This document shows positions 18,212 through 30,870 of a stretch of DNA of 55,932 bases, one piece after another. The translations under genes and the position numbers were made by a program. How positions within the stretch are numbered: the stretch's first letter is position 1; each line of letters begins with the position of its first letter. Under the pieces are notes generated by a model. It saw only the letters and a program-made list of their open reading frames with translations, made no database searches and was not told where the DNA came from. The DNA lies in assembly GCA_021845665.1 (NCBI GenBank), contig JAJZVO010000025.1:1-55932 (forward strand). Reading direction: 5' to 3'. Source of the stretch: Bacteroidota bacterium. Its GTDB lineage: Bacteria > Bacteroidota > Ignavibacteria > Kryptoniales > JAKASW01.

Positions 18212-20497
18212 CTATTCCGCTCCGTTCTCAGAAGGCGCCTCCGGAATTATGTTGCCGCCTGAGGCCGGCTCCATAGAAGATGAATCTCCGAGGGCCGTGA
18301 TTTCAAGCTGTATCGATTCCTCCGCGCCTTTGCTCTTTATCTCTTTTATGATTTCTTCTATCTCACGCAGCTTCGGAAGATCATCGAGGCTCTTGAGCGC
18401 GAAGACCTTCATGAACTTCTGCGTCGTACCATAAAGAAGAGGACGACCGACGGTCTCCGCTCTTCCGACTACGGTCACGAGTTCCTTCTCGAGGAGATTG
18501 TGGAGGACGTAGTCTACGTTCACTCCGCGTATCGATTCGATCTCCGGCTTCGTGATGGGCTGCTTGTACGCGATGATGGCGACGGTTTCGAGAGCGGAAT
18601 TGGACAGCCTCCTCTTGGATCTCTCCTTGAATAGGTTGGACACCCACTGTGCCATCTCCTTGCGCGTCGCGTACTGGTATCCGTTCGCGATCTCGACAAT
18701 ATGGAAGCCCGTGCCGTCAGCTTCATATTTGGCGTTCAGCGCATTCACCCGCGACGTTATCATGTCGGGGTTCACGCGCCCAAAAGTGTGGGCGGCGTCG
18801 AGTACCGACTTGATAGTCGAGACAGGGAGCGGCTCATCCGAGGCAAATATAATTGACTCGATGATGTGCGCCAGGTCGTCGACTACTTCCTCTCTCACCT
18901 CCGGTTCCTCGTCACCGCCGGTTTCTTCACCTGAAACAATTCCTTCCCCATCCACGGCTGCCGGTACCGCGAGTTCAGGCGCAGGCACTTCCTGCTCGAT
19001 TCGATCCTCCTGCCCTGCATTCTCTTCTATTGGAAGAGGTTCTTCAGCAACTTCCTTAGCATCCTCGGTTACTGTCAGGTCGCTGGCTTCGACTGCGTGC
19101 ATATCCTGTCCGATTTGCTCTTGCTGTTCAACGTTCTCTTCGATTGGGGGAGGCTCTTCCGGTTCCTCGTTGACATTCTCAGGTGCCAACAGCTCTTCAG
19201 CCTCCACAGGGACGGCGGATTCTTGACCGGCAACTGCCTCCACCGGCTCAGCTTGTCCGGCAGGCTCTTCCGGCGCCGGAGTCTTTTCTTCCGGTGTCAC
19301 TTCTTCCTCTGTCCCGGTTGCCGGAGTCTCTTCCGCCGATTCCGGGTTATCTGCCGGCGGGACTCCGTTCCCAATATTTTCCTTACCGGCCGGTTCAGCA
19401 TTTTCAGACACCTCTTCCGATAGCTCCTCATCACAGAGTGATTCGGTTGCCAAGGCCCCCGGGGTGACAACGGCGGGAGGAATGGCCATTCCTGGAATCG
19501 AGCTAACCGGTTCGAGCGGCACTTCTGCGGGCTCCGACGCTTCTTCGGCAACCGAGGATTCAACATCTTGAGCTGCAGGAAGTTCTTCGCCAAGTGTTCC
19601 GGAGACAATTTCTCCCGGAAATTCCTCATGATCTTCTTCCGCATTCAATGTTACTGCGGCATCTTTTTTCTCAGCACCTGCGGGCTCGGCCTTCTGATCC
19701 CGCGCAGAGTGTTCCGCATTTGCAAGTGCCTCACTTTCGTCAGCTTCACCGGCATGCATTCCCGTCGTGTCTAAGCCGGAAGCGACGGCGTCTTGTTCAA
19801 CCTCAGAAGTCCGGATAATCTCCGCGGCTTCCTCGTCGGCTTTCGCATCGGCGGGCAGAGCTTCCTCAGACCGTTTTTCTATCCCCGACTCTTCATGCGA
19901 TTCGTCGGCTTCCGACGCCACGTCCTGCGGCAGACTTACCGGGGTTTCTTCCGCCGGAGTCTCCCGTTCTGCTTCCAGACCAGCAGGAGTCGATTCAATC
20001 TGTGTTCCTTCGATAGTTACATTTTCACCGGCCGCTTCGGAAAGCGGCTTGGCCGGAGTCACTGCTTCTGCTTCTTCGGACGTGGTACAAGTCTTTTCAG
20101 CGGACTCAGGCGAGGGAACTTCGCGAATGGGAATCGTGGGAGCTTCCTCTTCTTTCGCTCTACCCGATAAGGCGGGCGTTGAGGCTTCAGGCAGGTGATC
20201 ACGCTCAACGTGCAGATGCTCCATGTTATTCGAGGTTGGACTGGTTGCCTCGTTATGGATTTCAACGTCGCGCTCTTCTTTGCCCGCAGGCGCGGGCGAT
20301 TGCTCCGGTGTTACCAAAGAAGCTGGAACACCCTTTTCCTCCTGAGTCTTCTCAACATCACGAGCCGGGAAATGGAGCTCCGCCACGCGCGGCATATTGC
20401 CTGCTGCCGGATGGTTCCCGACACTTTTCGTATCCGGCGCCTTATCCTGTTCGATGCCTTCATTTCGATTGGGGAACTCAGTATCCTTCTCGGACAT
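18212..20497 (-). CDS. scpB: Segregation and condensation protein B with a ~537-residue acidic N-terminal extension
   Basis: 761 residues from the ATG at 20497, which has GGGGAGGAGG immediately upstream; the start lies 20 bases inside the end of scpA. Only the last ~224 residues are ScpB: two winged-helix domains from VVDDLAHIIESIIFASDEPL to SLDDLPKLREIEEII, including SALETVAIIAYKQPIT and ETVGRPLLYGTT. ScpB dimers bind the ScpA kleisin of the SMC condensin. ScpB proteins are normally about 180-280 residues. The preceding ~537 residues are low-complexity, rich in Glu, Ala, Pro, Ser, Val and Thr, strongly acidic, almost without Trp/Tyr/Cys, and built of loose repeats (PxxxEExA). The extension is probably disordered; its role is unknown. 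Confidence 0.93.
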   Translation of the reverse strand: MSEKDTEFPNRNEGIEQDKAPDTKSVGNHPAAGNMPRVAELHFPARDVEKTQEEKGVPASLVTPEQSPAPAGKEERDVEIHNEATSPTSNNMEHLHVERDHLPEASTPALSGRAKEEEAPTIPIREVPSPESAEKTCTTSEEAEAVTPAKPLSEAAGENVTIEGTQIESTPAGLEAERETPAEETPVSLPQDVASEADESHEESGIEKRSEEALPADAKADEEAAEIIRTSEVEQDAVASGLDTTGMHAGEADESEALANAEHSARDQKAEPAGAEKKDAAVTLNAEEDHEEFPGEIVSGTLGEELPAAQDVESSVAEEASEPAEVPLEPVSSIPGMAIPPAVVTPGALATESLCDEELSEEVSENAEPAGKENIGNGVPPADNPESAEETPATGTEEEVTPEEKTPAPEEPAGQAEPVEAVAGQESAVPVEAEELLAPENVNEEPEEPPPIEENVEQQEQIGQDMHAVEASDLTVTEDAKEVAEEPLPIEENAGQEDRIEQEVPAPELAVPAAVDGEGIVSGEETGGDEEPEVREEVVDDLAHIIESIIFASDEPLPVSTIKSVLDAAHTFGRVNPDMITSRVNALNAKYEADGTGFHIVEIANGYQYATRKEMAQWVSNLFKERSKRRLSNSALETVAIIAYKQPITKPEIESIRGVNVDYVLHNLLEKELVTVVGRAETVGRPLLYGTTQKFMKVFALKSLDDLPKLREIEEIIKEIKSKGAEESIQLEITALGDSSSMEPASGGNIIPEAPSENGAE

Positions 20498-21248
20498 TGT
20501 CCTCCTCCCCGAAGGCAGCTTCGGATACAGCATCATATTTAGTAATAATAAAATCATTAAATCCGCCTCTCGTCTGTACGCGCAGGATGTTCCTCTTAAT
20601 CAATTCGAGGAGTGCAATGAAGGTCACCACCAGCCTGATCCGTTCGTGTATGCCGACCGCGATCTCGAGGAAATGGAGGGTCGGCTTCTCCTCCACCGCT
20701 GCCACGAGGAAGTCGATCTGTTCCTCGATCGTCACATTAAGTCTATGGATGTTGTGATAAGGAGTGGCCTCGAGCCTGTCCATCGCATGTTTGAATGCGG
20801 TCACGAGGTCGATAAGAGTGGCATTCTTGAGCTCCTCGTCTTCGGGAGAGACGAACTCCCTTTCATCTTGTTTGAAAAGCGTTCGGTAGAAAAGCTTGCT
20901 CCCCTCTTCCTCCATGTAACCGAAATTGCGGGAAGCTTCCTTGAAGCGCGCGTATTCCGCGAGCCTGTCGGCGAGTTCCTTCCGCGGGTCCTCCTCGATC
21001 AGGTCTTCGATGCCCTCCTCGTGCGGAAGAAGCATCCGGACCTTGATCTGCATGAGTGTGGCGGCCATCACGATGAACTCGCCCGCTATCTCCAGGTCGA
21101 GCATCCTTATATAGTGGACGTAGTCGAGAAATTCCTGCGTGATTCTCGCAATCGGTATGTCATAAATATCAAGCTGGTCGCGCTTGATAAAGAAGAGGAG
21201 AAGGTCCAACGGGCCTTCAAAATCGTTGAGCTTTACCCTGTACGTCAT
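20478..21248 (-). CDS. scpA: Segregation and condensation protein A (kleisin)
   Basis: 256 residues with the ScpA pattern: an N-terminal FEGPLDLLLFFIKRDQLDIYDIPI helix that binds the SMC neck, the EFIVMAATLMQIKVRMLLP segment, an acidic linker, and a C-terminal winged helix (LVVTFIALLELIKRNILRV). ScpA bridges the SMC heads and binds an ScpB dimer, forming condensin for chromosome segregation. It overlaps trpS by four bases at its start and scpB by 20 bases at its end. No smc gene lies in the window. Complete and of normal length. Confidence 0.95.
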   Translation of the reverse strand: MTYRVKLNDFEGPLDLLLFFIKRDQLDIYDIPIARITQEFLDYVHYIRMLDLEIAGEFIVMAATLMQIKVRMLLPHEEGIEDLIEEDPRKELADRLAEYARFKEASRNFGYMEEEGSKLFYRTLFKQDEREFVSPEDEELKNATLIDLVTAFKHAMDRLEATPYHNIHRLNVTIEEQIDFLVAAVEEKPTLHFLEIAVGIHERIRLVVTFIALLELIKRNILRVQTRGGFNDFIITKYDAVSEAAFGEEDNVREGY

Positions 21249-30264: not shown

Positions 30265-30870
30265 TTGGACAAGGTTATGGTAGATATCCTCGGGCTCTCG
30301 CCAAGTCCATCGAGCCCGGGCGCATACGCCCTGATATTGAAAGAGACAGAAGGAGAGAGAAGGCTCCCGATAATAATCGGACAGTTCGAAGCCCAGGCGA
30401 TTGCGCTGGAACTAGAGGGTATCAAGCCTCCGAGGCCTCTCACGCATGACCTCGTGAAGAACGTTCTCGATTCGCTCGGCAACGTGCTTTCCGACGTGTT
30501 GATAAGCGAGCTCCGCGACGGTACGTTCTATGCGCGGCTCAACGTTGAAGGGAATTCTCTAAGTCACGAAATAGATGCAAGACCAAGCGATGCGATTGCG
30601 ATCGCTATCAGGTTCGGCGCCCCGATCTATGTCGCGGAGACGGTAATGGAAGAAGCTGCGGCCACTCCGGAAAGTCCCGAAGAGACCGACAGTGAAGTCG
30701 AATCCAAATCCGAGAGACCGAAGAAGAACCGGGAGCGCTCACCTGCTTACACAAAAGAAGCCAAGATGGAACAGCTTCAAAAGGAACTCACAGACGCGAT
30801 AAGCCGGGAAGACTACGAGAGAGCCGCGAAACTCCGCGACGAGATAAGGCGGCTACAGTTAGGCGACTGA
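30265..30870 (+). CDS. Bifunctional nuclease (BFN) domain protein with a C-terminal UVR motif
   Basis: 201 residues. Residues 1-130 form a BFN/DUF151 domain (VDILGLSPSPSSPGAYALIL, RRLPIIIGQFEAQAIAL, EIDARPSDAIAIAIRF). A charged linker of about 40 residues follows, then a UVR motif at the end (KELTDAISREDYERAAKLRDE), as in UvrB/UvrC and several chaperone-associated proteins. BFN-UVR fusions are known in Bacteroidota and relatives; a plant homologue has nuclease activity, but the bacterial role is not established. The start is TTG at 30265 with AAGGAG nine bases upstream. It follows etfA by 39 bases. Confidence 0.88.
   Translation: MDKVMVDILGLSPSPSSPGAYALILKETEGERRLPIIIGQFEAQAIALELEGIKPPRPLTHDLVKNVLDSLGNVLSDVLISELRDGTFYARLNVEGNSLSHEIDARPSDAIAIAIRFGAPIYVAETVMEEAAATPESPEETDSEVESKSERPKKNRERSPAYTKEAKMEQLQKELTDAISREDYERAAKLRDEIRRLQLGD

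Follow-up and report, generated by a model that had tools for sequence, protein, structure and literature searches.

A long acidic N-terminal extension on the condensin subunit ScpB of a Bacteroidota bacterium, a putative charge-selected disordered docking arm

The scpB gene found in the window (the whole stretch of 55,932 nucleotides that was analysed, contig JAJZVO010000025.1 of a Bacteroidota bacterium) encodes a condensin subunit with a 537-residue acidic, low-complexity extension in front of its winged-helix core. Within the genus, this extension turns over fast in sequence and length while keeping a strong net negative charge that neither drift nor solubility alone would preserve, so that selection seems to act on it. 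The best explanation overall, which we favour tentatively, is that the extension is a charge-selected disordered docking arm on SMC-ScpAB. The locus comprises:

18212..20497, minus strand: scpB, whole coding sequence including the stop codon, 761 aa
18887..20497, minus strand: N-terminal acidic low-complexity extension of scpB, codons 1-537, recognised by composition and kept in 12/12 complete genus orthologues
18368..18865, minus strand: SMC_ScpB winged-helix core (PF04079, E 1.1e-54)
20501..20506, minus strand: AGGAGG, ribosome-binding site ahead of the ATG at 20497
20478..21248, minus strand: scpA, 256 aa (PF02616), with a 20-nt overlap with scpB (20478-20497)

The scpB frame is open from the ATG at 20497 to the stop at 18212. 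In the product, the Pfam SMC_ScpB match is restricted to residues 545-710, where it covers the full-length domain (positions 2-160 of 160), and the TIGR00281 score was 135 bits against a cut-off of 89.2. This bore out the initial annotation of a ScpB with an acidic low-complexity N-terminal extension of ~537 residues, although the span it had given to the extension (18884-20497) was one codon too long, the true one being 18887-20497. Its view that ScpB is normally under 300 residues proved unfit for these relatives, with ScpB lengths of 204-772 aa in the class.

The proposed start, said to be supported by a ribosome-binding site and by overlap with scpA, has both elements in place. In the genus set (13 genomes, 12 with a complete scpB, that of G005 being cut by the contig end), AGGAGG precedes the ATG in 9/12 orthologues (exceptions G002, G007 and G008), and an scpA overlap of 17-29 nt was found at all 12 chosen ATGs. 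A conserved internal start close to the core was not found in the 12 complete orthologues. The remaining two same-strand frames across the extension contain 13 and 42 stops. Based on the open frame and on the constraint described below, we infer that the extension is translated.

The 537 residues of the extension include 26% D+E and 5.6% K+R, giving a net charge of -0.209 per residue, with three aromatics (0.6%), two Cys and 16.9% ILMFVWYC. By composition the extension is apparently disordered, in agreement with its earlier description as a translated, disordered polyanion attached to a condensin subunit. AlphaFold models from two ten-row alignments had a mean pLDDT of 39.0 and 39.4 and were poor throughout, including the core. 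To judge how rare such a stretch is, we have sampled 642 kb (13.8% of the genome) as 40 stretches plus the window, the latter included by design, so that the result describes rarity and carries no p-value. Of the 521 crude ORFs (100 aa or longer) in this sample, scpB alone contained an acidic low-hydrophobic stretch reaching 100 aa (511 aa). The runner-up, with 96 residues, is the acidic linker of an ORF at 30265-30870 of the window (plus strand), which resembles a bifunctional-nuclease protein of the DUF151 type with a UVR-like end. A second copy of the extension was searched for elsewhere in the genome and not found. Self-BLAST (E 1e-3) detected no internal protein repeats in the three longest extensions of the genus, and TRF reported two tiny DNA repeats and nothing more.

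All 12 complete ScpBs of the genus have an acidic N-terminal extension, with a net charge of -0.14 to -0.28 per residue and lengths of 99, 114, 115, 128, 129, 138, 210, 244, 290, 510, 537 and 548 residues. The absence of the acidic region from orthologues, named earlier as counter-evidence, was observed in the sister family f2 (6/6 ScpBs found) but in none of the 12 complete genus orthologues. The three long forms, from the window's genome (G000), G012 and G003, are grouped as a clade with support of 98/97 in the core tree. Their cores are 96% identical (dN 0.016-0.023, dN/dS 0.024-0.043), whereas their extensions have an identity of 0.39-0.42, with dN of 0.46-0.51 and dN/dS of 0.33-0.55, values that are rough owing to the low-complexity alignment. 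The net charge of the whole extension was nevertheless -0.209, -0.210 and -0.218 per residue in the three proteins, as anticipated by the suggestion that composition, rather than sequence, would be conserved.

The window's genome encodes an SMC of 1181 aa (977.8 bits) and a ParB. SMC is of normal length in 12/13 genus genomes, G005 having a 634-aa frame that matches positions 552-1180. Thus, the SMC-ScpAB machine looks intact. Compensating basic charge was not found in ScpA, which is mildly acidic in the genus and in the sister family. Three genus genomes have an additional weak SMC_ScpB-like match (E about 1e-6) away from the main scpB, in frames of 408-421 aa (G002:C68, G004:C4 and G011:C83).

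We have then compared ScpB tails across the class, where 61 genomes were searched and 57 ScpBs had definable ends; G005 (contig edge), G019 and G056 (no ScpB match) and G029 (boundary motif not found) were dropped from the tables. The usual tail site in these relatives is the C-terminus: C-terminal tails of 10-358 residues are net negative in 57/57 members. N-terminal extensions of at least 40 residues were present in 17/57, comprising 12/12 members of the window's family f1 and 5/5 of family f3, and in none of the other 40 class ScpBs, sister family f2 (6/6) included. The core tree separates f1 from f3, which suggests two gains, the deep branches of this tree being weakly supported. The C-terminal stretch was also net negative in 40/40 further ScpBs of the phylum, a set in which the tail boundary is rough for L148, L171 and L172 (fallback or wrong motif match) and N-terminal extensions were left uncounted because starts were unresolved. 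Hence, the acidic ScpB tail is general here, and what is new locally is its place at the N-terminus and its great length. In family f3 (L054, L058, L060, L066 and L074), acidic tails occur at both ends of ScpB (46-150 residues N-terminally and 159-358 C-terminally), some of them visibly repetitive. A ScpB match was missing in 71 of 395 phylum genomes, many of which are complete genomes from family f35.

The selection of charge was addressed with simulations. In the variable part of the extension, ~66% of aligned residues differ among the long forms, with a net charge per residue of -0.225 in G000 and of -0.230 and -0.245 in G012 and G003. Simulated drift to about 59% difference brought the net charge to about -0.06, and to about -0.04 when hydrophobic gains were forbidden (solubility only). 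The lowest single run among all drift simulations reached -0.12, and the outcome was the same at base compositions from 45% to 57% GC. Neutral and solubility-only evolution would thus lose the charge that the real tails keep, suggestive of selection for net negative charge. As a caveat, renewal of acidic stretches by duplication could also keep the charge, but self-comparison found no repeats.

Among the three long forms, three segments were called above the 99% level of shuffled columns:

20348..20488, minus strand: conserved segment 1, codons 4-50, 29/47 columns invariant in the three long forms
19451..19522, minus strand: conserved segment 2, codons 326-349, containing IPPAVVTPGAL, 15/24 columns invariant
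18887..18955, minus strand: conserved junction, codons 515-537, 16/23 columns invariant

The pN/pS was 0.28 for codons 8-50 and 0.26 for codons 326-349, against 0.61-0.66 in the rest of the extension, which makes protein-level constraint on both segments likely. Both are known from three close relatives only, and segment 2 is confined to the three long forms (3/26 genomes). At the junction, synonymous and replacement change were equally low (0.112 and 0.129), and we have therefore dropped it as proof of protein constraint; its conservation may reflect recent shared ancestry. The junction pS among the long forms, 0.11 against 0.42 in the core, is possibly a trace of recombination or of DNA-level constraint. 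An LDGLEEIV-type peptide lies 23-24 residues ahead of the core in 7/12 genus members; the long forms, G001 and G011 lack it. The motif was found in 0/20000 shuffled extensions and in 0/521 ORFs of the genome sample. The N-terminal conservation of MSEQDQNSPE in the shorter relatives was discounted, as it sits in the scpA overlap.

The acidic C-terminal tail of the ScpBs in families f4, f6 and f17 is closed by a conserved peptide, basic and amphipathic, with the approximate pattern WKxWKxKIxxFIKKLFG. A profile search identified this tip in 43/294 class genomes (a share of class genomes, not of those in the three families) at E 5.4e-6 or better, all of them in f4, f6 and f17; two more genomes matched at 0.004-0.007 only. 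The tip was at the exact C-terminus in 30/30 loci read (L177-L206), with a net charge of +4 to +8. The ScpB core motif was recognised in 28 of these, the other two being a contig-edge fragment and the ScpB already known from G051, which the pattern overlooked. The spacer before the tip, 141-345 residues long, was net negative in 29/29 loci having one. MinD and FtsA carry membrane-targeting C-terminal helices, and by analogy the tip looks like such a helix. No match to it was found in the window's genome or in its 12 genus relatives.

This architecture shows that an acidic ScpB tail can space a conserved terminal peptide from the core, and it hints that spacing short binding peptides is what these tails do. 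A wider reading, which we regard as doubtful, is that ScpB in the class is a hub of fast-evolving, charge-selected acidic arms acting as spacers for anchor peptides; the arm would tether condensin to the membrane by an amphipathic helix in f4, f6 and f17, and would have moved to the N-terminus, with other docking peptides, in the window's genus. The initial view of a polyanionic tail was right about the acidic N-terminal tail, but it had missed the C-terminal norm, the two apparently constrained segments and the amphipathic tip.

Other explanations have to be weighed against a docking arm. The tail could be a DNA mimic that would fold back on basic surfaces of the SMC head or kleisin and compete with DNA, in a form of autoinhibition. 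Such a role would fit the strong, selected negative charge as well as a docking arm does, and two systems offer precedents. The acidic C-terminal domain of Hfq is disordered and has a defined acidic tip that competes with nucleic acid, a tested mechanism (PMC5606850); the window's ScpB would resemble it as a nucleic-acid-handling protein with a disordered acidic appendage, low in hydrophobic residues and apparently selected for charge, here placed N-terminally and predicted to be disordered from composition. In condensin I, the N-terminal tail of CAP-H is regulated by phosphorylation and restrains loading, its deletion speeding the process (PMC9797191); it is likewise an N-terminal tail on a non-SMC subunit, CAP-H being a eukaryotic kleisin and the protein described here a ScpB. 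Against mimicry, the overall charge of ScpA, which is mildly acidic, points to no basic surface for the tail to pair with, the extension keeps neither a charge block nor an acidic tip at a fixed position, and its length varies fivefold in the genus. We consider this model unlikely.

We deem it similarly improbable that the extension is tolerated filler, grown by chance and harmless, with an acidity that serves solubility only. Its rapid turnover in sequence and length and the pN/pS of the variable parts would agree with this; yet the solubility-only simulation ended far from the -0.23 of the real tails, two segments have a low pN/pS, and acidic ScpB tails recur class-wide despite the rarity of such stretches in the genome sample. 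Finally, translation might begin near the core, or the locus might be a chimeric MAG artefact. A GTG lies four codons upstream of the core in the three long forms, but the other nine orthologues do not share it, and a start there would leave a 500-codon open frame with protein-level constraint. Without selection, some 15 in-frame stops should have arisen in this frame between the long forms. The same architecture also recurs in separately binned MAGs, and an error of either kind is highly improbable.

Concerning the docking arm itself, its structural part is very probable on sequence grounds: a disordered, self-repelling polyanionic arm at the head end of SMC-ScpAB. For its function, we propose a mechanism that we hold to be possible, with some reserve. 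Like charge would keep the arm extended and clear of DNA, so that it would work as a spacer and as a bumper, both electrostatic and steric. Residues 8-50 and 326-349, and the LDGLEEIV peptide where present, would be the peptides through which the arm docks onto SMC, ScpA, a segregation factor or another partner. In this way, the arm could limit unproductive contacts and tune where and when the SMC-ScpAB complex loads.

Compared with the known ScpB/KITE subunit of SMC-ScpAB (PF04079; 1t6s, 3w6j, 4i98), the window protein has the same winged-helix core, an adjacent scpA, and SMC and ParB in the genome, and it adds the 537-residue extension; matched chains of the PDB relatives of the core (also 2z99 and 6juv) are 162-219 residues long. 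Long-form ScpB is already named in NCBIfam: NF001106 (ScpB, long form) is a curated family whose 377-position model has the core at its C-terminal end. The window protein scored 102.7 bits with it, below the cut-off of 300, and aligned over the core only. Among the titles and abstract openings of the open-licence literature, we found no paper on acidic ScpB extensions or on a ScpB amphipathic helix.

The usual picture of a bacterial SMC complex is that of a minimal machine with three subunits. If the proposed reading is true, a charge-selected disordered ScpB arm, re-evolved on different ends of the protein, would make the prokaryotic condensin tail-regulated, as the eukaryotic condensin is. 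The series of extensions from 99 to 548 residues within a single genus provides natural material for testing such regulation.
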